Source: Gammaproteobacteria bacterium
GTDB lineage: Bacteria > Pseudomonadota > Gammaproteobacteria > S012-40
DNA: 56,905 nucleotides
Reading direction: 5' to 3'
Assembly: GCA_029884425.1 (NCBI GenBank)
Contig: JAOUHV010000014.1
Span: 1-56,905 of the forward strand
In this document: piece by piece, positions 15,030-27,970 of the stretch
How positions within the stretch are numbered: the first letter of the stretch is position 1
Layout of the letters: each line of letters starts with the position of its first letter
Made by a program: the position numbers and the translations under genes
Notes under the pieces: generated by a model
The model's database searches: none
Seen by the model: only the letters and a program-made list of their open reading frames with translations
Told to the model about the DNA's origin: nothing

Positions 15030-15503
15030 CTAGCGACAACGATACACGGGCAGCGCGCGATCGGCCGCTGTTTGGTATTTGACTGAAATATCGTCAAATG
15101 ATTGGAGTGCAGCGATGGGATCTTCAGTCAAAACAAACGCGTTAAAGCCACAGCGCTCCAGGAAACTCAACTGGTCGCGCAAGAAGTTGCCAACCGCACG
15201 CAATTCACCAACGAATTGATAACGATCGCGCAGCAGACGCGCCAAGCTAAAACCACGTCCATCGGTGTACTTGGGGAAATTGACCGCAACCAGATCAAAG
15301 CGTGGCAAGTCTGCCACGATAGTCTCCACCGCATCATCGCCTTCCAGCAACAATCCCAATTTTCCTGCATGATTCTGCAAACTTTCGCGCTGTGCCAACC
15401 ATGTTTGCAGCGGCACAATCACATCACCGGCAGGAACGGCCTGGTCAACCGTCAATGTCAGCCACTGCTCATCAATCACTTGGCGATTTACAATGATCTT
15501 CAT
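15030..15503 (-). CDS. DUF934 protein, sulfite reductase partner
   Basis: A 157-residue DUF934 protein. The family motif region is visible as F-D-L-V-A-V-N-F-P-K-Y-T-D-G-R-G-F-S-L-A-R-L-L-R, followed by F-V-G-E-L-R-A-V-G and a C-x-F-N-A-F segment. DUF934 genes nearly always follow cysI-type sulfite reductase genes in proteobacteria, as here, where they overlap by 4 bases. It is presumed to help sulfite reduction, but no activity has been shown to my knowledge. Confidence 0.88.
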   Translation of the reverse strand: MKIIVNRQVIDEQWLTLTVDQAVPAGDVIVPLQTWLAQRESLQNHAGKLGLLLEGDDAVETIVADLPRFDLVAVNFPKYTDGRGFSLARLLRDRYQFVGELRAVGNFLRDQLSFLERCGFNAFVLTEDPIAALQSFDDISVKYQTAADRALPVYRCR

Positions 15504-17200
15504 GCTTCCACCCCCTGCGAAATTTGTGACGTTTTTTTGCTGTCATCGCCATACAAGCGCTCCTTGAACGGCGCCTTGCCTACGCGACGATAGGTATCAA
15601 GAAAACGTTCGCCGTCACGACGCTCATCCACATAAACCTGCAAAATAACTTCCAGCGCATCGGCAACACCATTAATAGGCACCGAACGTCCGAGCACTTC
15701 GCCCAATGACGCGTCATTGGTGGAGGAACCGCCCAGGGAAATCTGGTACCACTCCTCACCTTTTTTATCCACCCCCAACAAACCGATGTGGCCGATGTGG
15801 TGATGACCGCAAGCATTCATGCAGCCGGACAATTTGACTTCCAGTTCGCCCAAATCATAGAGGTAATCCATGTTGTCGAAACGCTCATTGATTTGTTTGG
15901 CCACGGAAATGGATTTGGCATTGGCCAGTTCGCAATAATCCAGACCAGGGCAGCAAATCATGTCGGTCAAGGTGCCAATGTTCGCTGTTGCCAAACCGTG
16001 TTCTTTCAGTGTTTGCCACACGTCAAACAAGTCGGCTTGCTTCACATCCGCCAACACTAAATTTTGATCATGGGTGCTGCGAATTTCGCCAAAGCTATAT
16101 TGCTCTGCCAGGCTGGCAACGGCACGCATTTGCGCAGAAGTAATATCACCCGGCGGATTTTTTGGACCTTTGAGCGAAACAAAAACTGCGCGATAACCGG
16201 CAATCTTGTGTGCTTTGGTATTGTGTTTCACCCAGGTACGGAACGACGGATTCGCCTGTTGCTGTGCAGCCAGGGTTTCATCGGCAGCAGCATTGCTGTC
16301 ATAGGCTGGCGGCGCAAAAAATGCGTTGACTCGTGCAATTTCCCGTTCATCCAGCTCAAGACTTACCGGCCCCTGCAATACCGCCTGCCACTCGGCATCG
16401 ACTTGCTCGCGGAAAGCATCAATTCCCAATGCTTCGACCAATATTTTGATCCGCGCTTTGTACATGTTGTCGCGACGACCATAGCGATTGTAAACACGCA
16501 GAATGGATTCCAGATACGATAACAAATCTTTCTTGGCCAAAAACTCGCGGACGACTTTGCCCAAAATCGGCGTACGACCCAAGCCGCCACCCACCCAGAC
16601 TTCAAAACCGGTTTCGCCATGCGCGTTTTTCACCAGTTGCAGACCAATGTCGTGCACCTGAATGGCCGCTCGGTCCTTGCGCGCACCAGACACTGCAATT
16701 TTAAATTTGCGCGGCAAGAAGGCGAATTCAGGATGCAAGGTCGACCATTGACGGATAATTTCGCAATAGACACGCGGGTCTTCGATTTCGTCCACACAAA
16801 CACCAGCGAGCGCGTCCGAGGTGACGTTGCGCATGCAATTACCTGAGGTCTGGATGGCGTGCATTTGTACCGTGGCAAGTTCTTCCAGAATATCGGGAAC
16901 GGTTTCCAGTGCCGGCCAGTTGTACTGGATATTCTGTCGGGTGGAAAAATGACCAAATCCGCGATCGTATTTGTCGGCGATATGGGCCAACATGTTCATT
17001 TGCGACGTCGACAACAGGCCATAGGGAATCGCCACCCGTAACATCGGTGCGTGCTTTTGCACATACAGGCCGTTCATCAGACGTAGAGAACGGTATTCCT
17101 GGTCGCCAATTTGTCCCGCCAGAAACCGCTGGGTTTGATCGCGAAACTGCCGAACACGATCATCCACCAGTTGCTGGTCATACTTATCGTATTGATACAT
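15500..17200 (-). CDS. cysI: Assimilatory sulfite reductase hemoprotein
   Basis: A 566-residue nitrite/sulfite reductase with two ferredoxin-like half-domains and two siroheme/4Fe-4S domains. The cluster ligands are in C-C-P-G-L-D-Y-C (C-x5-C) and G-C-M-N-A-C-G-H-H (C-x3-C). The pairing with DUF934 is the arrangement of the CysI-like enzyme of Pseudomonas and relatives, which reduces sulfite to sulfide for cysteine synthesis. ATG 17200 has AAGGTG nine bases upstream; GTG 17212 is the alternative. No flavoprotein CysJ gene is nearby, so electrons may come from ferredoxin or from a protein encoded elsewhere. Nitrite as substrate is less likely given the DUF934 partner. Confidence 0.9.
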   Translation of the reverse strand: MYQYDKYDQQLVDDRVRQFRDQTQRFLAGQIGDQEYRSLRLMNGLYVQKHAPMLRVAIPYGLLSTSQMNMLAHIADKYDRGFGHFSTRQNIQYNWPALETVPDILEELATVQMHAIQTSGNCMRNVTSDALAGVCVDEIEDPRVYCEIIRQWSTLHPEFAFLPRKFKIAVSGARKDRAAIQVHDIGLQLVKNAHGETGFEVWVGGGLGRTPILGKVVREFLAKKDLLSYLESILRVYNRYGRRDNMYKARIKILVEALGIDAFREQVDAEWQAVLQGPVSLELDEREIARVNAFFAPPAYDSNAAADETLAAQQQANPSFRTWVKHNTKAHKIAGYRAVFVSLKGPKNPPGDITSAQMRAVASLAEQYSFGEIRSTHDQNLVLADVKQADLFDVWQTLKEHGLATANIGTLTDMICCPGLDYCELANAKSISVAKQINERFDNMDYLYDLGELEVKLSGCMNACGHHHIGHIGLLGVDKKGEEWYQISLGGSSTNDASLGEVLGRSVPINGVADALEVILQVYVDERRDGERFLDTYRRVGKAPFKERLYGDDSKKTSQISQGVEA

Positions 17201-17300
17201 AAACGATTTCACCTTTTTACAAGCCGTCGCCGCCCACCCAACAACGGTGGCAGACCGTCAAAAACTCGAGCAAATTTAACAGCTTGCCTATATAAAATGA

Positions 17301-17647: not shown

Positions 17648-19735
17648 TTAGAGCAAACCGAACAGGAATTTCCCGGATTTTTTCTGCTGGCTAATCATAT
17701 CTGCCAGCAATTTGTCTTGGTTGCGCTGGGCAATTTCTCGCGCATGTTCATTGCGCTGATTGCGTATTGCGGCATCGGCACCTGCGTCCAGCAACAATTT
17801 CACTGTGTCGCTGTCACCGCTGCGCACCGCCAAAATCAATGCAGTATCACCCGCACCATTTTTCTCATCCAGCCTGGCTTTGGCGCTGACCAAATATTTT
17901 ACCAGCAGCGATTCACCTGACGCCGATGCCAACATTAATGCCGTGTTCATTTCGCTGTTTTTCAGGTTTACGTTGGCTCCGGATTTCAATAACAGACTGA
18001 CAATCGTGGGACGCTGCTTCTTGATAGCAACCATCAGAGGAGTAAATCCCTGTTTGTCCGGAGCATCAACCGATGCGCGATACTGCAGCAGTAACTCTGC
18101 CGCTTTGAGGTTGCCGCTATCAGCGGCATGCCACAGCGCAGTTTTGCCATAGGCATCACTCACATAGGTTTTTGCGCCCCGCTGCAACAACGCGGCAACC
18201 ACCTCCGTCGGCAATTGTTCGCGAATCGCCAAAGCCAATGAAGGCAAAGCACCACCAGGCACGCGATTGACATCATTCATGCGCGGCATCAACGATTTAA
18301 CAATGTCGACATGCTGATAACCCATGGCCAGCAGCAATGCATCGTTGCCGTCTTTCCCAACATGATCAACATCCGCCTTCGACGCCAATAGCAAATCAAC
18401 AACCTCGCGATGACCATTTTCTGCAGCGTACATGAGCGGCGTATAACCCACCTTGTCTGTGGCGTTTACGTTCGCACCATTGTTGATCAATAAAACGACA
18501 ACCTTGAGATGACCTTCTTCTGCCGCGCGTAATAGCGCTGTTTTGCCATCTTTGTCCTGCTCGTTGATGCGTACATTTTTATTCTGCAGAATACGCTCAA
18601 GCAACTTATCCTGTCCTCGCCAAGCCGCCTGCACAACCAGCGGATAACCCGCATACGTGCCGTTTTCCTGAACGTCTTTGAGCGAGCGTTCTGTCAGTGG
18701 CAAATTGACATCAGTCTTCTCGTCACTTTGCACCAAACGCGTTTTGACTTCTCCAGGCATTTTTGCGCCGGCATCTTCGAGCAATTTCTGCAGTCGCTTA
18801 TCATCATTTTGTTTGGCAAACGAATACGCTGACCAGCCCTTTTTATTTTTCAGCTCCAAATCGGCACCGGCCTTTACCAACCGGGCTGCCATATCCCAAT
18901 TTTTGTCTCTGGCCGCGATGATCAATGCACTATTTCCCTGAGCATCCACCACATTCACCGCCGCACCGGCCTGCAAAAGCGCACTCACCATAACTTGGTC
19001 GCTATTTTTTACCGCCACCAGCAACGCGGTCAGTTGATGCTTATTTACCTGATTAACCGCCGCGCCACGGGAAATCAATAATCGCGCAACTTCATCGTTC
19101 TTGCGTTCTGCTGCCAAGATCAATGGTGTGTTACCGTATTCGTCCGCTGCATTCACATCGACCTTGCCGCGCAACAATCGGCGAATCTGCGCGATTTCGT
19201 TATCCAGCACCGAGTCACGCAACCACTCTTCATTGCTGACCTGGCGCTTGTCATTTTCACCATCCTCAACCAGCGGCGTGCTCACCTGATCCAGCGTTTG
19301 TAATTTTTTTTGTGCCTGTGAATAACCTAATTTGGCGGAATTTTCCAGCCAGAATCGCGCGAGCTTCGCATTGTAGCCAACGCCTTTTTCATCCAGGTAC
19401 ATGACACCGACAAGATAGGCCGCTTTTTTGTGCTCGCGTTCGGCAGCTTTCAGCAACAACCCCATAGCAACTTTGTCGTTAGCCTCAACACCAATGCCAT
19501 TTTTATAAAATACACCCAATTGGTATTGGGCATCGGCTTCGCCTTTGTCGGCCAACTTTTGCAACAAATTTATCGCTGCAACATAGTCCTTCACTCGTAC
19601 TGCACGATCAATTTGTTGATATTGTTCGGTATATTTTTTATCGCCTTCTGCTTGCGCAGCCAATGGAGCAGCGACAAACAGACTGCACACCAACAACAGC
19701 TGCATCTTCAATTTAGTCATATCAAAGTGTGCCAT
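17648..19735 (-). CDS. Exported Sel1-ankyrin repeat protein
   Basis: A 695-residue protein with a signal peptide (about residues 9-30, ending A-A-P-L-A-A-Q-A). Two Sel1-like repeats follow (A-Q-Y-Q-L-G-V-F-Y-K-N-G-I-G-V and a second ending at ~130). From ~195 to ~680 there are about a dozen ankyrin repeats (N-x-P-L-I-L-A-A, N-V-N-A-T-D-K-V-G-Y-T-P-L-M-Y-A-A). It is probably a periplasmic protein-binding scaffold. Its start overlaps the stop of the ferredoxin-flavoprotein gene by 14 bases, so they are co-transcribed; ATG 19720 (M-T-K-L-K), just after that stop, is an alternative start. Its position next to the multiheme locus suggests a role in that system, but nothing in the sequence proves it. 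Confidence 0.82.
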   Translation of the reverse strand: MAHFDMTKLKMQLLLVCSLFVAAPLAAQAEGDKKYTEQYQQIDRAVRVKDYVAAINLLQKLADKGEADAQYQLGVFYKNGIGVEANDKVAMGLLLKAAEREHKKAAYLVGVMYLDEKGVGYNAKLARFWLENSAKLGYSQAQKKLQTLDQVSTPLVEDGENDKRQVSNEEWLRDSVLDNEIAQIRRLLRGKVDVNAADEYGNTPLILAAERKNDEVARLLISRGAAVNQVNKHQLTALLVAVKNSDQVMVSALLQAGAAVNVVDAQGNSALIIAARDKNWDMAARLVKAGADLELKNKKGWSAYSFAKQNDDKRLQKLLEDAGAKMPGEVKTRLVQSDEKTDVNLPLTERSLKDVQENGTYAGYPLVVQAAWRGQDKLLERILQNKNVRINEQDKDGKTALLRAAEEGHLKVVVLLINNGANVNATDKVGYTPLMYAAENGHREVVDLLLASKADVDHVGKDGNDALLLAMGYQHVDIVKSLMPRMNDVNRVPGGALPSLALAIREQLPTEVVAALLQRGAKTYVSDAYGKTALWHAADSGNLKAAELLLQYRASVDAPDKQGFTPLMVAIKKQRPTIVSLLLKSGANVNLKNSEMNTALMLASASGESLLVKYLVSAKARLDEKNGAGDTALILAVRSGDSDTVKLLLDAGADAAIRNQRNEHAREIAQRNQDKLLADMISQQKKSGKFLFGLL

Positions 19736-21035
19736 ACTTGGTTTGCACCTCTATACCAATGGTTCGCAAAAAGTCAGTCGGCAACACACCACCAGCACAA
19801 ACAATCACCGCATCATTCTCAATTTCCAAAGGTTCATCGCCTTGCCGCAATTCAACTCGATCAGAATGAATTCGTATCACTTCCGAGTTCAACAGCAGAC
19901 GCAAGCCTTTTTTCGCCTGACATAGTTCAAGACGATCGCGGTTACCCTGTTTTATCCGTGAAAAGACTTCGCGCCGATAAGACAGTGTCACTTCATGGTT
20001 GCCCAACTCCGCGATCGCACAAGCAGCCTCAATCGCACTGTCGCCGCCGCCAACGACCAACACGCGATGGTCAACATATTGCTCGGGGTCCATCAGGCGA
20101 TAAACCACTTTCGGCAATTCTTCACCCTCGACATCTAGTTTTCGCGGCGTTCCACGTCGACCAATCGCGAGCAAAACACAACGGGTATGATACGACTGTT
20201 GATTGGTTGTCAGAATAAAATCGCCTTTTTGGCCTTCTATTTTTTCCACGCGCTGATGATAGTGAACATTCAATGGATACTTTTCATTCATCTTGGTGAA
20301 AAACTCGAGCAATTCCTCTTTGGTTGTTTGTCGAAAATGCAGTCCACCAACCAAAGGTAATTCCACTGGCGATGTCATAACCAATTTTCCACGTGGATAT
20401 TGAAAAATTGCACCTCCCAAGGATTCTTGCTCAACAACCAGGTAACGTAAATTATATTTTTTCGCAGTTAATGCCGCCGCAATACCTGCTGGCCCTGAGC
20501 CAACAATAATCACGTCGTAGGGTACATTGCCTGTCGCAGATTTTAACTCTGCCATCATTCCATCTATCGCTTGTACGCCCTGGGTCATTGCGTTGCGAAT
20601 CAAACCCATGCCACCCAGTTCACCGGCAATGTAAACGCCGGGCACATTAGTTTCAAAGTTGGGTTTGACCAACGGAATATCCACACCGCGGGTTGCGGTG
20701 CCAAACACCAATGAAATCGCCCCCGTTGGACACACTTCTTTGCAAGCGCCGTGACCAATGCACATCGCCGCGTTTAACAATCCCGCACGGCCATAAATCA
20801 ATCCCAACACTTTTTTTTCCGGACAGGCATCGACACACGAACCACAACCAATACAACGCGCCGGATCAACAATCGGATGCAGTGAGCTAGGTTCACCTAA
20901 ACCCGCACTGTGCGCCAATTTACGTTTGGCCAGATTTTGCCAGGTGCGCTGACTGCGAAGAATGGCATACACCCCCCATGAGCCTACAAACAAGGCAACG
21001 TAAATCGCCAGCGAAAATAAATCGTTTTCATCCAT
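19722..21035 (-). CDS. Membrane-anchored 2[4Fe-4S] NAD(P)-flavin oxidoreductase
   Basis: A 437-residue protein. It has one N-terminal membrane segment (about 5-25) and a ferredoxin domain with C-I-G-C-G-S-C-V-D-A-C-P and C-I-G-H-G-A-C-K-E-V-C-P; the His at the second ligand place of cluster two is, as far as I recall, usual for this family. A thioredoxin-reductase-like part follows, with FAD motif V-G-S-G-P-A-G and NAD(P) motif V-G-G-G-D-S-A. No C-x-x-C redox pair is present in the flavin domain, as in YpdA-type enzymes. It could move electrons between NAD(P)H, ferredoxin and a membrane partner. The gene diverges from the cytochrome operon at 21270 across a 234-base gap, and the two units are probably functionally linked. 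Confidence 0.85.
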   Translation of the reverse strand: MDENDLFSLAIYVALFVGSWGVYAILRSQRTWQNLAKRKLAHSAGLGEPSSLHPIVDPARCIGCGSCVDACPEKKVLGLIYGRAGLLNAAMCIGHGACKEVCPTGAISLVFGTATRGVDIPLVKPNFETNVPGVYIAGELGGMGLIRNAMTQGVQAIDGMMAELKSATGNVPYDVIIVGSGPAGIAAALTAKKYNLRYLVVEQESLGGAIFQYPRGKLVMTSPVELPLVGGLHFRQTTKEELLEFFTKMNEKYPLNVHYHQRVEKIEGQKGDFILTTNQQSYHTRCVLLAIGRRGTPRKLDVEGEELPKVVYRLMDPEQYVDHRVLVVGGGDSAIEAACAIAELGNHEVTLSYRREVFSRIKQGNRDRLELCQAKKGLRLLLNSEVIRIHSDRVELRQGDEPLEIENDAVIVCAGGVLPTDFLRTIGIEVQTKYGTL

Positions 21036-21269: not shown

Positions 21270-23666
21270 ATGAATACTCTGCATCATGAGCGTTTTGCTC
21301 TGTTTTTCAAGGCAATGCTGCAATACGTCAGCGTAACATTAGTCGTCATTTTCTCTGGCCTGTCGGTTGCGGCAGACAGCATTCCGACTAATGAAAAAAC
21401 GCCCTTCAATCATTTCGCCACAGGATTTCCGCTCATTGGTGCGCACAGCAACGAAGATTGTTCATCCTGTCATGTCGGCGGCATTTTCAAGGGAACCCCG
21501 ACAGGCTGTAAAAACTGTCATCAACAAGGCAGTGCTGTCGGCGCCAGCAGTAAACACAATCAACACATTGCCACCAGTAACGAATGCGACCGTTGCCACA
21601 ACCAACAAAAATGGTCTGACATTTCCCGCGTTGATCACACACAAACACTAGGCAGCTGTCAGTCGTGTCACAAAAGTTTGCTGACCTCTGCCAGCCTGCG
21701 CCACATTCCGTTTAGCGGCGACTGTGATACCTGTCACCTGCCGCGCGGCTGGGAAATAAATTCGTTTAATCACTCTAAAACCGGCTCTTTAGCCTGTTCC
21801 GGTTGCCATAACGGCAGCACTGCCGTCATGGGCAAAGGTCGCAACCATATAGCCACCACACAAGAATGTAATGATTGCCACACCGTGGGGGGTGCTTGGG
21901 AACAAGCACACGTCAATCACAATGTGGTCACGACGGCGTGCTCGGCGTGTCACAATGGTGCACACACCTTTGGTAAACCCAATACTCACATAGTTACCAA
22001 TTTGGAGTGTGATGCGTGCCATTTGCGCACCGCCTGGACACCAGCAACGTTTGTTCACCCCGCCAGTACATCAGGTTGCGCCAACTGTCATAACGGCATA
22101 CAGGCGATGGGCAAAACCCGTGACCATCTAGTCACCACTCTGGATTGCAGTTCGTGCCATACATCCAAGGGTTGGGTGCCGGCCAAGTTTGACCATTCAT
22201 CCGCAGGCGCCGCCTGTTCGACCTGTCATAACGGCACCAAGGCCACCGGCAAATCAAGCAATCACCTGCCAACTGCACAGGAATGTAGCGTCTGTCACAA
22301 GACCACCGCCTGGCAGCCCGCAACTTTCAGTCACCAAGGCATCGGCAGCAATTGTTCAAGCTGTCACAACGGCAAGATATCCACCGGCAAAACAGTCAGC
22401 CATCCGCTAACCACGCTGGAATGCGGCGCCTGCCACAGCACCAACGCCTGGACGCCGGCGACTTTCGATCACAGCGGCAGCAGCTCGGCCTGTTCAACGT
22501 GTCACAACGGCACCAAGGCCACCGGTAAAACCGCCAACCACGTACCAACCACGCAGGAATGTAGCGCCTGTCACAGCAACAAAGCCTGGACGCCCGCGAC
22601 CTTCAGCCACGTGGGCGTCACCCAAGCCTGTTCCAACTGCCATAACAATGTCATCAGCACCGGTAAGACAGCCAACCACTTTATAACCACGCTGGAATGC
22701 GGTGCCTGCCACAGCACCAACGCCTGGACGCCGGCGACTTTCGATCACAGCGGTAGCAGCTCGGCCTGTTCAACCTGTCACAACGGCACCAAAGCCACCG
22801 GCAAAACCGCCAACCACGTACCGACCACGCAGGAATGTAGCGCCTGTCACAACAACAAGGCCTGGATTCCCGCGACGTTCAGCCATGTGGGCGTGACCCA
22901 GGCTTGCGCGACTTGCCACAACGGCACCATTTCCACCGGCAAGAGCGTTACTCACGTCACCACGCTACTGGACTGCGGTCGCTGCCACACGACAAATGCC
23001 TGGCTGCCCGCGACGTTTGACCACACCGGCGCCAGCCTGGCCTGCTCAAGCTGTCACAACAACACTACCGCCACGGGTAAAAGTGCAAGCCACGTAACCA
23101 CAACCTTAGAGTGCGGCAACTGCCACACCACGTCCGCCTGGCTACCCGCCAAGTTTGACCACAGTGGCATTTCCGGCAACTGCTACAGTTGCCACAACAG
23201 CACTACGGCCACGGGCAAACCAACGACTCATATCGTGACCACTGCAGACTGTAACGCCTGCCACACGACCACCGCGTGGATGCCTGCCACTTTCAGCCAC
23301 AGTGGCATTACCAGCAACTGTGCAAGCTGTCACAACGGCACTGCTGCGACTGGCAAAGCCAGCAATCATTTTGTCACATCCAACGATTGCTCCAACTGTC
23401 ACAACACCAGCAACTGGTCAACGGTGGTATACGAACATGCATCGATAAATTATCCCGGTGATCATGCCGTCGCCATTTCCTGTACCAACTCGTCATGCCA
23501 TAGCAGCGGTTCTCAGGCAGTAACCTGGAAATTTACCGCCTACGTCAACAGTTGTGCGGGCTGCCACGCGGATAATTTCGTTGCCAATGAACACAACAAA
23601 ACACTCAGCGAATTACGCAATTGCGCTGGCTGTCATGAACACAGCGTTAGAAACACCCGCTGGTAA
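21270..23666 (+). CDS. 31-heme c-type cytochrome (giant multiheme)
   Basis: A 798-residue exported protein: signal peptide about 1-35 (ending S-V-A-A), then an almost unbroken string of heme sites from residue 64. I count 31 CxxCH motifs plus one CTNSSCH (C-x4-CH, residues 738-744). Most of the chain is a ~46-residue two-heme unit: T-T-x-E-C-x-x-C-H ... A-W-x-P-A-T-F-x-H-x-G, then A-C-x-x-C-H-N-G-x-x-x-T-G-K-x-x-x-H. The extra His in each half suits bis-His ligation. Residues 381-564 are two 92-residue copies. It is probably a molecular wire in the periplasm or at the cell surface. Strong GGAGG precedes the next gene 15 bases on. A candidate extended -10 (TGCTAGAAT, 21183-21191) lies upstream, without an obvious -35. 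Confidence 0.93.
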   Translation: MNTLHHERFALFFKAMLQYVSVTLVVIFSGLSVAADSIPTNEKTPFNHFATGFPLIGAHSNEDCSSCHVGGIFKGTPTGCKNCHQQGSAVGASSKHNQHIATSNECDRCHNQQKWSDISRVDHTQTLGSCQSCHKSLLTSASLRHIPFSGDCDTCHLPRGWEINSFNHSKTGSLACSGCHNGSTAVMGKGRNHIATTQECNDCHTVGGAWEQAHVNHNVVTTACSACHNGAHTFGKPNTHIVTNLECDACHLRTAWTPATFVHPASTSGCANCHNGIQAMGKTRDHLVTTLDCSSCHTSKGWVPAKFDHSSAGAACSTCHNGTKATGKSSNHLPTAQECSVCHKTTAWQPATFSHQGIGSNCSSCHNGKISTGKTVSHPLTTLECGACHSTNAWTPATFDHSGSSSACSTCHNGTKATGKTANHVPTTQECSACHSNKAWTPATFSHVGVTQACSNCHNNVISTGKTANHFITTLECGACHSTNAWTPATFDHSGSSSACSTCHNGTKATGKTANHVPTTQECSACHNNKAWIPATFSHVGVTQACATCHNGTISTGKSVTHVTTLLDCGRCHTTNAWLPATFDHTGASLACSSCHNNTTATGKSASHVTTTLECGNCHTTSAWLPAKFDHSGISGNCYSCHNSTTATGKPTTHIVTTADCNACHTTTAWMPATFSHSGITSNCASCHNGTAATGKASNHFVTSNDCSNCHNTSNWSTVVYEHASINYPGDHAVAISCTNSSCHSSGSQAVTWKFTAYVNSCAGCHADNFVANEHNKTLSELRNCAGCHEHSVRNTRW
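22410..22961 (+). repeat. 276-bp tandem duplication, four hemes per copy
   Basis: Copy 1 (22410-22685) and copy 2 (22686-22961) encode residues 381-472 and 473-564 of the 31-heme cytochrome. By eye 81 of 92 residues are identical, and the first ~50 codons are almost unchanged, with mostly silent differences. The rest of the gene repeats at protein level (~138-bp two-heme unit) but is more diverged at DNA level. Confidence 0.88.
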
Positions 23667-23680
23667 CGCAAGGAGGACAT

Positions 23681-24580
23681 ATGCAAAATTCCAACGAGCT
23701 GACTTACTCGGCTAACGAATCACAATCCAGCAGCGTGAAATCGCTGCGCGATCGCATATTCTCGCTTATCGGCATGCCGATGTTGTTTGTGCTGGTCACT
23801 CTCGCGATCGTTCAGGCCTGGCTGGTGAAAGACTATCGCTTTATTGATGCGGAAGAAGGTCTCGGCTATTGGTTGGGCATCGGTGGCGGCGTATTGATGC
23901 TGCTGCTATTGTTATACCCCCTCAGAAAGCACATTAACGCCCTGCATTTTCTGGGAAAAATTAACGTCCTGTTTCGCATCCATATGGTGTTCGGCATCCT
24001 GGGGCCAACACTGATTGTGCTGCACACCAATTTTCAACTGGGCGCACTCAACAGCAACGTTGCATTGTTCTGCATGCTGATTGTCGCTACCAGTGGACTG
24101 ATGGGACGCTATCTGTATTTCCGCATCCATAGTCGCCTCAGTGGTAAAAAACTGACTACGCTCGAATTGCAAAAGCAGTCACTGGATAGTTTGCGACAGC
24201 TCAATGAAGACTTGCCAAACTTCAACCATCTGACGGATTACCTGGATCGCTACAAAAACGAAGGTCACTATTTCGACCACAGCATGCTCGGATTTATTTT
24301 CAGCCCCTGGCTACGTTTAAAGCGTTTTCTGATTTATCGCGACCTGTCATCTCGCTGCCAAGCGAGCATAAAAGAGCATACATCCGATAAAAAACAACAG
24401 AAACTACTGATTAGCCGTACACAAAAAAATCTGAAATTGTATATTTTCAGTGTACTTCGCCTCGCCAAACTTGACCTATATCAACGGACGTTCTCATTGT
24501 GGCACGTGCTGCATTTGCCCCTGTTCATGATGATGCTGGTCACTGGAATTTTCCACGTTATAGCCGTACACATGTATTAA
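23681..24580 (+). CDS. Predicted diheme cytochrome b membrane protein
   Basis: A 299-residue inner-membrane protein not matching a named family for me. Five hydrophobic helices are seen (about 29-48, 63-82, 96-117, 124-147, 270-296) with a basic cytoplasmic-type loop between the fourth and fifth. Two helices each hold a pair of His 14 apart: H101/H115 and H278/H292. This H-x13-H pattern on two helices is that of the diheme four-helix core of cytochrome b. Lying between two multiheme cytochromes, it is the natural candidate for passing electrons between the quinone pool and the periplasmic hemes. Start ATG 23681 follows AAGGAGG; the next gene begins 4 bases after the stop. Confidence 0.75.
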   Translation: MQNSNELTYSANESQSSSVKSLRDRIFSLIGMPMLFVLVTLAIVQAWLVKDYRFIDAEEGLGYWLGIGGGVLMLLLLLYPLRKHINALHFLGKINVLFRIHMVFGILGPTLIVLHTNFQLGALNSNVALFCMLIVATSGLMGRYLYFRIHSRLSGKKLTTLELQKQSLDSLRQLNEDLPNFNHLTDYLDRYKNEGHYFDHSMLGFIFSPWLRLKRFLIYRDLSSRCQASIKEHTSDKKQQKLLISRTQKNLKLYIFSVLRLAKLDLYQRTFSLWHVLHLPLFMMMLVTGIFHVIAVHMY

Positions 24581-24584
24581 ACCG

Positions 24585-26267
24585 ATGAAATTCTGCTCCA
24601 TATTCGTTAGCGCGCTTTTGCTATTTTTCAGCGTACTCAGTGAAATCCAGGCCGCCAATATTGAGCGGCTGGTCATGCCTGGAAAAGTTATCAAGGGCCA
24701 TGCAAAATACGAGGAAAACTGCGACAAATGTCATGAGTCCTTCAAAAAGGCAGATCAAACCAGACTCTGCCTGGACTGCCACAAAAAAGTGGCTGACGAT
24801 ATTCGCCAAAAAAACCGCTTTCACGGCATCAACAGCGACACCCGCACGGCGCCATGCAAGCAGTGCCATAGCGAACACCTTGGCCGTGATGCCGACATCG
24901 TTCTATTCAACAAAGATTTGTTCAATCATGAGCAAACCGCCTTCAAGTTAACCGGTGCCCACACCGGCGCTTCCTGTGCTGCCTGTCACAAGGCTGACAA
25001 GAAATACCGCGAGGCCGAAACAAAATGTTTCGCCTGTCATGAAATAATCGACTCACACAACAAAAAACTGGGCGAAGATTGCGAAAAATGTCATTCCACC
25101 AAACATTGGAAAACCACCAAATTTGATCATGACAAAACAAAATACCCGCTAATCGGCAAACATCAGGATGTCAATTGCGAGCTTTGTCACCCGGCAAACA
25201 AGTATAAAGACACGTCCAAGCAGTGCATTGCCTGCCATCGCATTTCAGACACCCACCAGGGAAAGTACGGCGAAAAGTGCGAACAATGCCACGACAGCAA
25301 ACGCTGGGATAAAAGCTCATTCAATCATGACAAAACCGTTTTCCCCCTGCGTGGCGCCCATATTCCGGCCAAGTGCCGTTCTTGCCATGTCAAAGACCTA
25401 AAAGAAAAATTGAAGACTGCTTGCTTTGACTGCCATGAAAAGCAGGACAAACATAAAGGCGATCTGGGCAAAAAATGCGATAGCTGCCATACGGAAAAGA
25501 CCTGGGCGAAAATCGCCTTTGAACACAGCAAATACAAAAACGAGACATGCTACAGCTGCCACCAGAAGGATGATGAGCACGCACTTCGCTACGGCAAAAA
25601 ATGCGAAACCTGCCATCGCACCGAGAACTGGACTAAGCAGATATTCGATCACAAGAAAGACGCCAACTATGCGCTTAATGGCAAACACAAGGATGTTCGC
25701 TGTATTTTTTGTCACAAAGGCAAAGCCAGTGATGAAAAAGACAAAACCAAATGCATCCAGTGCCACGCTATTGATGACGTCCACTTAGGCAAGCAAGGGA
25801 AAAAGTGCAACCAGTGCCATGAAGAAGCTGGCTGGAACAAAAATGTAAAATTTGATCACGACATGAGCAATTTCCCGCTCATCGGCCTGCATGCCAGCAC
25901 AGCCTGCTCCGAGTGCCACATTAACTCGAGATATACAGATACAAGCAGTGCTTGTTACAGCTGCCACAAAGCCGACGACACACACAAAGAAACGCTAACG
26001 CACCAGTGTGCACTTTGCCACAACCCAAACAGCTGGCGTTTTTGGCAGTTCGATCATGACAAACAAAGTAAATTCAAACTTACCGGCAGGCACAAAAAGC
26101 TGCATTGCTCGCAATGCCACAAAACAGCGACTGACAAAAAAATAGAACAGTCGGGGAGCTGCGTCGCCTGTCACCGTGCAGACGACGAACATAACGGTCG
26201 ATTTGGCAGCCAGTGCAATCAATGCCACAACACAGAATCGTTCAAGCAGGTCACTGTCAAACAATGA
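24585..26267 (+). CDS. 23-heme c-type cytochrome
   Basis: A 560-residue exported, Lys-rich protein: signal peptide about 1-23 (ending E-I-Q-A) and 23 CxxCH motifs, on average one per ~23 residues. The chain is a repeating module, F-D-H-D-K-x-x-x-P-L-x-G-x-H-x-x-x-x-C-x-x-C-H, followed by C-x-x-C-H-x-x-D-x-H and G-x-K-C-x-Q-C-H, giving about three hemes per ~70 residues. The spare His residues can serve as distal ligands. Its basic character contrasts with the Thr/Ser-rich 31-heme protein, so the two probably occupy different places, for example periplasm and porin lumen or surface. It ends in an ATGA overlap with the porin gene, which makes a physical partnership likely. Confidence 0.92.
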   Translation: MKFCSIFVSALLLFFSVLSEIQAANIERLVMPGKVIKGHAKYEENCDKCHESFKKADQTRLCLDCHKKVADDIRQKNRFHGINSDTRTAPCKQCHSEHLGRDADIVLFNKDLFNHEQTAFKLTGAHTGASCAACHKADKKYREAETKCFACHEIIDSHNKKLGEDCEKCHSTKHWKTTKFDHDKTKYPLIGKHQDVNCELCHPANKYKDTSKQCIACHRISDTHQGKYGEKCEQCHDSKRWDKSSFNHDKTVFPLRGAHIPAKCRSCHVKDLKEKLKTACFDCHEKQDKHKGDLGKKCDSCHTEKTWAKIAFEHSKYKNETCYSCHQKDDEHALRYGKKCETCHRTENWTKQIFDHKKDANYALNGKHKDVRCIFCHKGKASDEKDKTKCIQCHAIDDVHLGKQGKKCNQCHEEAGWNKNVKFDHDMSNFPLIGLHASTACSECHINSRYTDTSSACYSCHKADDTHKETLTHQCALCHNPNSWRFWQFDHDKQSKFKLTGRHKKLHCSQCHKTATDKKIEQSGSCVACHRADDEHNGRFGSQCNQCHNTESFKQVTVKQ

Positions 26268-27970
26268 AAATTACCACCTCACTCTTTGTATTCGCCCTAA
26301 TGACAGGATATTCCGCTGCACATGCCGCCGAGATCAACAACACCACCAGTGTCACTGATGAACAATTACTGAAAATCATGGAAGATGCACGTCAGGCCAT
26401 GACCGCACATCAGTACATGATGGCCATCAAACTTTATCGACAACTTGCGGAAATGCCCGATCACGTTCTGCGTCAGGACGCGATTGAGTCATTGGGGTTA
26501 GCCTACGAACGTGCCGGCAAACAGGCTGATGCAAAGCGAGCATATGAGTATTTCTTGCAACTCTATCCCGACTCGGCCGCATCCGAGCGGATTCGTCAGC
26601 GCTTGGCCGGCATTGTGACCGCAACCTGGAAAGACAAGGAAAAGCTGGACAAGCCCAAAGAAAAAGCCGGCTCATCAACCTGGAACAATTATGGTTCATG
26701 GTCGCAATATTTCCGTCGTAATGGCAGCCTGGACGAAGACAACAAGGACATCGTCAATTTGAATTTGTTGTCCAGCAATCTGGATCTCAATGGTCGTGGA
26801 AAAATAGGTAATCTTGATTTAAAAACGCGCTTCACAGGCAGTGAAAATACCAATATCGACGATAGCAGCAACAATTACCAGACGCTCAATTATCTTTATG
26901 CCGAAATCAATAGCCGCGGCTCGGGCTTTTACAGTCGCATTGGCCGACAGCGCCCCAAAAGCGGTGGCATCATGGGCCGTTTCGATGGTGTTCATCTCGG
27001 CTATCACATCAATAACAGTTTAATTTTCAACGTAACTGCGGGTTATCCCGTGGACCGCTCAAAAAATATTTTTATTGATGACAGCCGTGAGTTTTACGGT
27101 GTAACGCTGGAAACAGGTCCGTGGCATGAGTACTGGCTTGCCAACATCTATGCTATCCGACAAATGTCGGAGTCTTATCTTGATCGTGAAGCTACGGGTG
27201 GTGAACTGCGCTATATTCACCCAAAACACAATCTGTACACCTTCGTCGACTATGACACGCATTTTGAAACATTAAATATTTTCAGCACCCAAGCCAGTGT
27301 GACCGCCAGCGAGAGCATCATATTTAATGCGTTCCTCGATGTCCGTCACACACCCACAGTGACCACGCGCAATGCCCTATTTGGTCAGCAGGTCACCACA
27401 TTGACCGAGCTGCACAAATCGAACAGTCCCGAAGCCATTCAGCAAATGGCGCTAAACAACAGCCCGAAATATTATTTGTCGATGGCATCGATGACTTATA
27501 AATTCAACAGCATGTATCAGTTGGATACCGACATAACCGCCAGCAAGTTGGAAACCTCGCCTAGCATGCCAGCCATGTCAGGCTCATCGAATCCGATGGA
27601 ATATTATTTTTCGACACGACTAACCATTAGCGAATGGTTTGGCAAACGCGATGTCAATATTGTTGGTCTGCGCTATGCCGACACGGCCAACAGCACACAA
27701 CAACAATTACTGCTCAACAGTCGCTTTTATGCCTCGGAAAAATGGTCACTCAATCCCAGCATCATCGTCGACAACCGCCGCTATAGCGGTAATAGTCAGC
27801 AGTCCGAACTTCGTGTTGTTCCAGGATTTCGAACCGAGTATCTAGCCAGCCGCAGCTTTAGTATGGACATGGAGATCGTGCCGGAATGGAGTGAACGCAA
27901 AGATACTGTGGGCAATTACGAATACAAAAACTACTACGTGAATATGGGATACCGTTACATTTTTGATTAG
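26264..27970 (+). CDS. TPR-containing outer-membrane beta-barrel (porin of the cytochrome conduit)
   Basis: A 568-residue exported protein. Signal peptide about 1-21 (Y-S-A-A-H-A), then a TPR-like periplasmic region (about 25-115: A-I-K-L-Y-R-Q-L-A and A-Y-E-R-A-G-K-Q-A-D-A-K-R-A-Y-E-Y-F-L). From ~130 to the end there are alternating amphipathic strands rich in Y, N, S and R, closing with G-Y-R-Y-I-F-D. The start ATG overlaps the 23-heme cytochrome stop; the longer frame from 26213 has no signal peptide. Function inferred from position: a barrel that sheathes a multiheme cytochrome across the outer membrane, as in porin-cytochrome complexes. It has no MtrB-type N-terminal C-x-x-C, so it is not a plain MtrB homologue. 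Confidence 0.8.
   Translation: MKITTSLFVFALMTGYSAAHAAEINNTTSVTDEQLLKIMEDARQAMTAHQYMMAIKLYRQLAEMPDHVLRQDAIESLGLAYERAGKQADAKRAYEYFLQLYPDSAASERIRQRLAGIVTATWKDKEKLDKPKEKAGSSTWNNYGSWSQYFRRNGSLDEDNKDIVNLNLLSSNLDLNGRGKIGNLDLKTRFTGSENTNIDDSSNNYQTLNYLYAEINSRGSGFYSRIGRQRPKSGGIMGRFDGVHLGYHINNSLIFNVTAGYPVDRSKNIFIDDSREFYGVTLETGPWHEYWLANIYAIRQMSESYLDREATGGELRYIHPKHNLYTFVDYDTHFETLNIFSTQASVTASESIIFNAFLDVRHTPTVTTRNALFGQQVTTLTELHKSNSPEAIQQMALNNSPKYYLSMASMTYKFNSMYQLDTDITASKLETSPSMPAMSGSSNPMEYYFSTRLTISEWFGKRDVNIVGLRYADTANSTQQQLLLNSRFYASEKWSLNPSIIVDNRRYSGNSQQSELRVVPGFRTEYLASRSFSMDMEIVPEWSERKDTVGNYEYKNYYVNMGYRYIFD

Follow-up and report, generated by a model that had tools for sequence, protein, structure and literature searches.

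An inner-membrane protein of PCC3 porin-cytochrome clusters, a putative di-heme cytochrome b, and its candidate cytosolic flavoprotein partner

Introduction

The PCC3 type of porin-cytochrome cluster was described by He et al. in 2017, whose main text lists a porin, extracellular and periplasmic multiheme cytochromes and a conserved inner-membrane protein (IMP) that has five helices, an SGXXG motif on the fourth transmembrane helix (TM4) and two WX3HX13H motifs (PMC5566968). That text also proposed that the PCC3 IMP carries two b hemes and that the IMPs of PCC3 and PCC4 are quinone-active, by analogy with the cytochromes b of bc1 and of hydrogenase (PMC5566968). PCC3 is widespread, and it is by this analogy that a link to the quinone pool has been assumed. 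The PCC4 IMPs of the same work resemble those of PCC3 in having two helices with HX13H; they are reported to be without significant homology to PCC3 IMPs (PMC5566968). In Sideroxydans ES-1, both PCC3 clusters are expressed less during growth on Fe(II) than during growth on thiosulfate (PMC8788666).

Two other kinds of heme protein invite comparison. In E. coli, Fre hands electrons from NAD(P)H to the heme protein MsrQ, from which they pass to a periplasmic enzyme in a NOX-like flow (PMC11031084). Among the DUF4405 heme-b cytochromes, which have four conserved histidines as IMP does, one protein was purified with heme b (PMC11334425).

Results

We analysed a window that comprises a whole stretch of gammaproteobacterial DNA of 56,905 nucleotides, and found that the 299-residue protein encoded between two multiheme cytochrome genes is the IMP of a PCC3 cluster (Table 1). 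Like Slit_1446 of Sideroxydans ES-1, an IMP covered in the main text of He et al. (PMC5566968), it has about 300 residues, five helices, HX13H on TM3 and TM5, SGXXG on TM4 (here SGxxGR, formed by S138, G139, G142 and R143) and the same gene set. Length, helices, motifs and gene cluster thus all agree with the published family, with one difference: the tryptophan of the first WX3HX13H, present in 117 of 120 homologues, is a leucine (L97) in this protein, whereas that of TM5 (W274) is kept. An earlier note on this DNA, written from the sequence, had recognised no family for the protein, and indeed no Pfam or NCBIfam model matches it; the family was nevertheless described in 2017. The idea that its members hold two hemes is therefore already known, and in proposing it the note rediscovered a published hypothesis, since He et al. 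had advanced it in their main text (PMC5566968).

Table 1. Coordinates of the PCC3 cluster, its divergent neighbours and the codons of the putative heme ligands in the window
Feature	Position	Strand	Description
ANK	17648..19735	-	695-aa Sel1/ankyrin-repeat protein; signal peptide likely, judged by inspection; 14-base overlap with FLAV; in 27/30 fully covered loci
FLAV	19722..21035	-	437-aa protein, candidate partner of IMP on the cytosolic side; membrane helix at the N-terminus, two Fe-S motifs, thioredoxin-reductase-like FAD/NAD(P) domain, seemingly circularly permuted
MHC1	21270..23666	+	798-aa multiheme cytochrome c, 31 CxxCH; PCC3 extracellular class; best match of second multiheme cytochrome in 65/65 loci
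IMP	23681..24580	+	299-aa, five-helix inner-membrane protein; putative di-heme cytochrome b of PCC3 cluster
H101 codon	23981..23983	+	TM3, cytoplasmic-side putative heme ligand; invariant 120/120
H115 codon	24023..24025	+	TM3, periplasmic-side putative heme ligand; invariant 120/120
H278 codon	24512..24514	+	TM5, cytoplasmic-side putative heme ligand; invariant 120/120
H292 codon	24554..24556	+	TM5, periplasmic-side putative heme ligand; invariant 120/120
MHC2	24585..26267	+	560-aa multiheme cytochrome c, 23 CxxCH; PCC3 periplasmic class; best match of multiheme cytochrome after IMP in 65/65 loci
PCC3 porin	26264..27970	+	N-terminal TPR-like stretch; ATG at 26264; homologue in 28/30 fully covered loci

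Comparison with the heme-protein families named in the earlier note (cytochrome b561, NapC, ferric-reductase-like and DUF families) gave no assignment. The ferric reductase family PF01794 had no match in the window IMP and did not rank among the 25 weakly matching families seen most often across 39 homologues; PF01292 (cytochrome b561 and Ni-hydrogenase cytochrome b) likewise had none in the window IMP and appeared in 3 of the 39 (best E 0.0013). The window IMP is also no member of DUF4405 (PF14358) by Pfam, a family that appeared in 7 of the 39 homologues (best E 0.038), and it contains no CxxCH motif for c-type heme as in the quinol dehydrogenases NapC, NrfH and CymA. Aligned by hhalign, IMP showed no significant similarity to 16 MsrQ/FRD or to 18 b561-type proteins taken from related genomes (p 0.04 against the MsrQ-type alignment), searches of PDB sequences with profiles of IMP and of the fused domain described below returned chance matches only, and viral contigs yielded no relative.

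The earlier note had drawn attention to two pairs of histidines, H101/H115 and H278/H292, each spaced H-x13-H in a hydrophobic helix, and to a long basic loop between the two helices; all of this was borne out. These are the only two HX13H pairs in IMP. Hydropathy and an AlphaFold model (mean pLDDT 84.5) agree on five membrane helices and place one pair on the third (TM3, residues 94-115) and the other on the fifth (TM5, the end of a helix spanning 237-298). They are separated by a fourth helix and by a basic helical stretch of ~110 residues, with 24 K+R and 12 D+E, that links helix 4 to helix 5. The HX13H spacing is by itself weak evidence, because 8% of composition shuffles of the IMP residues reach two or more such pairs, and we dropped the chance argument based on it.

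Conservation was more informative, as all four histidines are invariant in the alignment of 120 homologues (Table 1), together with K83, G105, N124, G139, G142, R143, W274 and P280. None of the nine other histidines of IMP is invariant, and only H150 (113/120), H297 (110/120) and H275 (109/120) are frequent. The near-conserved H297 lies at the periplasmic end and could be at the contact with a cytochrome. Judged from loop charges, the N-terminus and the basic TM4-TM5 region are predicted to be cytoplasmic, the latter because of the positive-inside rule, and the C-terminus to lie outside. TM3 and TM5 would run in the same direction, so that H101 would pair with H278 and H115 with H292, and we infer one b heme near the cytoplasm held by the former pair and a second near the periplasm held by the latter. 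Together, two hemes so placed would form a transmembrane electron path.

Fold comparison did not discriminate further. With Foldseek, neither the IMP model nor the fused-domain model had a match below E 0.001. In a second-look alignment the IMP model was superimposed on SpNOX (Z 9.4, rmsd 2.8, 117 residues), cytochrome b561 (Z 9.0, rmsd 3.5, 130 residues) and Dcytb (Z 8.3, rmsd 3.5, 131 residues), and for the fused domain hydrogenase-1 cytochrome b, b561, SpNOX and DUOX1 appeared. As unrelated helical proteins (ABC transporters, talin and other bundles) scored at the same level and were mixed with these heme proteins, the predicted fold of IMP is consistent with a two-heme four-helix core and does not prove it. 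IMP does have two histidines on each of TM3 and TM5, as in ferric reductase domain proteins.

We collected 80 IMP loci from GTDB genomes, 30 of which have wide flanks on both sides and are called fully covered here; a pattern search of genome contigs was run with a 12-sequence alignment, as the full alignment was too divergent. In the window, the genes of a flavoprotein (FLAV) and of a Sel1/ankyrin-repeat protein (ANK) are divergent from the PCC3 cluster, and both belong to the PCC3 gene set, beyond the published set. Among 370 genomes, a strong IMP occurs in 42, FLAV in 42 and both in 41 (Fisher p 3e-52); the genome with FLAV only (G103) carries a truncated copy with a stop, and that with IMP only (G006) carries a FLAV fragment beside IMP. 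Four genomes (G045, G048, G104 and G293) have two PCC3-branch IMPs each and two FLAVs each. FLAV was found in 29 of the 30 fully covered loci (counts for ANK and the porin are given in Table 1), and in the thirtieth, from Thalassotalea sp. ND16A, the one FLAV of the genome lies just beyond the end of the locus, so that it is close to IMP in 30/30. Across 68 loci, FLAV lies upstream of IMP and divergent from it in 51, upstream and co-directional with it in 12, and downstream in 5. No fusion of the flavoprotein to IMP was found within the PCC3 branch. Our literature search found no paper joining PCC3, extracellular electron transfer and a flavoprotein, and the terms "ankyrin", "FAD" and "pyridine nucleotide" do not occur in the main text of He et al., although the neighbour may be drawn in the figures or supplements of that work (PMC5566968).

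FLAV is conserved at 48-61% identity, higher than IMP. Across 64 FLAV sequences, cysteines 61, 67, 71, 92, 98 and 102 never vary, and C64 is present in 60 of them. The second Fe-S motif, CIGHGAC-x3-C, comprises three cysteines and one conserved histidine. When residues ~112-170, which precede the first Rossmann motif, were moved behind the C-terminus, the thioredoxin-reductase match grew from positions 1-244 to 1-292 of 300 and gained 11.5 bits, and the FAD domain therefore seems to be circularly permuted. A PADLOC match of FLAV to LmuA (E 5e-5) was disregarded because it covered only ~30 residues, at the nucleotide-binding motif.

Reductases of other architectures accompany more distant relatives of IMP. 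A profile built from 39 IMPs and searched in the 370 genomes recovered distant members, with per-genome E values mostly between 1e-9 and 1e-22. In the PCC4-like loci examined, a protein of ~800 residues with FAD/NAD(P), two cNMP-binding and 4Fe-4S parts (~33% to FLAV) is followed by IMP and then by a decaheme cytochrome. These IMPs stand next to a PF13247 iron-sulfur protein and a decaheme cytochrome, as PCC4 IMPs do, and the PCC3 profile detects them with per-genome E values mostly between 1e-14 and 1e-21. If the PCC4-like clusters are PCC4, the reported lack of significant homology between the IMPs of the two cluster types (PMC5566968) would have to be revised. Short IMPs of ~195-250 residues, in the loci examined, occur with a FAD_binding_6/NAD_binding_1/Fer2 protein and an octa- or heptaheme cytochrome.

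A further family (L204-L226) unites a NirB-like FAD/NAD(P) module, a BFD [2Fe-2S] domain and a heme domain in one chain. Its 23 proteins have open frames of 653-732 residues, one of them truncated; both HX13H pairs are present in all 23, and a decaheme cytochrome is encoded by the next gene in 22, the remaining one being at a contig end. The fused C-terminal domain aligned with IMP by hhalign at a probability of 95.8 (E 7e-9) with the histidines in register, compared with E 0.44 for a reversed profile and 7e-4 for the best of 60 block shuffles. Members of the fused-domain family also gave weak matches to DUF4405 (13/22, best E 3e-4), b561 (best 1e-6) and ferric reductase (7e-4). The IMP heme family is thus adjoined by four reductase architectures, one of them fused.

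Discussion

These observations suggest a candidate cytosolic partner for the PCC3 IMP and a wider IMP family tied to NAD(P)H-type flavoproteins. We consider it probable, though well short of certain, that IMP is the inner-membrane part of the PCC3 conduit and exchanges electrons with a cytosolic NAD(P)H flavoprotein, with outward flow favoured. On the inside, IMP would exchange electrons with the membrane-anchored FLAV, as in split NOX-type systems (Fre/MsrQ); the electrons would cross the inner membrane via the two b hemes; and on the outside IMP would exchange them with the 23-heme cytochrome MHC2, beyond which the path may lead through the porin to the 31-heme extracellular cytochrome MHC1. 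NOX/SpNOX and the MsrQ-Fre pair follow the same proposed logic, with a cytosolic NAD(P)H flavoprotein, heme or hemes between TM3 and TM5 and an extracytosolic acceptor. IMP differs from them in having no PF01794 match, in that its acceptor would be a multiheme cytochrome and in that its partner adds Fe-S clusters. The adjacency of the FLAV and IMP genes suggests a partnership and does not prove contact, and FLAV is mostly transcribed away from IMP (51/68 loci).

The direction from NAD(P)H to the outside is the weakest step of this model; we favour it because electrons leaving the cytoplasm from a low-potential carrier follow the membrane potential, and the lower expression of PCC3 on Fe(II) in Sideroxydans ES-1 fits it without proving it. 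The same gene evidence would serve an inward flow, in which electrons from an extracellular donor pass through PCC3 and IMP to the flavoprotein and on to NAD(P)+ or an iron-sulfur carrier, and some Fe(II) oxidisers do carry PCC3 (PMC5566968, PMC10734462). By established thermodynamics, however, electrons from Fe(II) could reach NAD(P)+ only by an uphill transfer that also opposes the membrane potential, and growth on Fe(II) goes with lower expression of both clusters of Sideroxydans ES-1 than growth on thiosulfate (PMC8788666), so that we regard inward flow as quite unlikely.

The earlier note had placed IMP at the quinone-facing entry or exit of the electron path. The four invariant histidines and the position of the gene between multiheme cytochrome genes uphold a di-heme-b-type protein in such a path, but a quinone-facing role found no support, and the gene context points instead to a cytosolic FAD/NAD(P)/Fe-S partner. 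An IMP that oxidises quinol or reduces quinone while FLAV does something else would agree with the published analogy, with the four invariant histidines and with the b561, hydrogenase cytochrome b and ubiquinol oxidase chains among the fold-comparison rows. It would leave the near-constant FAD/NAD(P)/Fe-S companion unexplained, as well as the fused and alternative reductases, and we hold it to be unlikely; a quinone role could possibly coexist with the flavoprotein model. FLAV and ANK might also be assembly, repair or sensing factors of the conduit and no electron partners of IMP, as the frequent divergent transcription of FLAV would allow, and ankyrin and Sel1 proteins are commonly scaffolds. 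The occurrence of four reductase architectures beside one heme family, one of them in a single chain, suggests electron delivery instead and makes such accessory functions decidedly improbable.

More tentatively, and at somewhat less than even confidence, we propose that PCC3 belongs with PCC4-like and related clusters to a single superfamily of transenvelope conduits coupled to NAD(P)H, in which a di-heme b protein would take electrons from cytosolic FAD/Fe-S reductases that can replace one another (four architectures, one of them fused) and would feed multiheme cytochrome wires. PCC3 would then be an extracellular reductase driven by NAD(P)H instead of an Fe(II) oxidase linked to quinones. 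If the conserved NAD(P)H-type flavoprotein is indeed the partner, the expected electron donor, the energetics and probably the direction of the PCC3 pathway would change, and this would fit the finding that PCC3 expression in Sideroxydans ES-1 is not tied to Fe(II) oxidation (PMC8788666).

The gene order of the window is unusual, because the extracellular cytochrome gene precedes IMP, whereas all 65 other loci with both cytochromes carry both after IMP, the first best matched by MHC2 and the second by MHC1. It differs in this also from the PCC3 clusters in the main text of He et al., where the extracellular cytochrome gene follows the periplasmic one and the usual periplasmic cytochrome has 21 hemes, compared with 23 in MHC2. 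MHC1 is a highly regular repeat, with one CxxCH per 23 residues over most of its length. A PCC3 extracellular cytochrome frame at another locus (L091:12722-20927, JACQWY010000013.1) has at least 89 CxxCH, the frame being truncated where the available sequence ends; the largest number known to He et al. was 85 (PMC5566968). ANK is perhaps a periplasmic scaffold. Beyond ANK, a sulfite/nitrite reductase-like hemoprotein, recognised by inspection (15030-17212, minus strand), and a small downstream gene adjoin the PCC3 cluster, with no evidence of a link to it.
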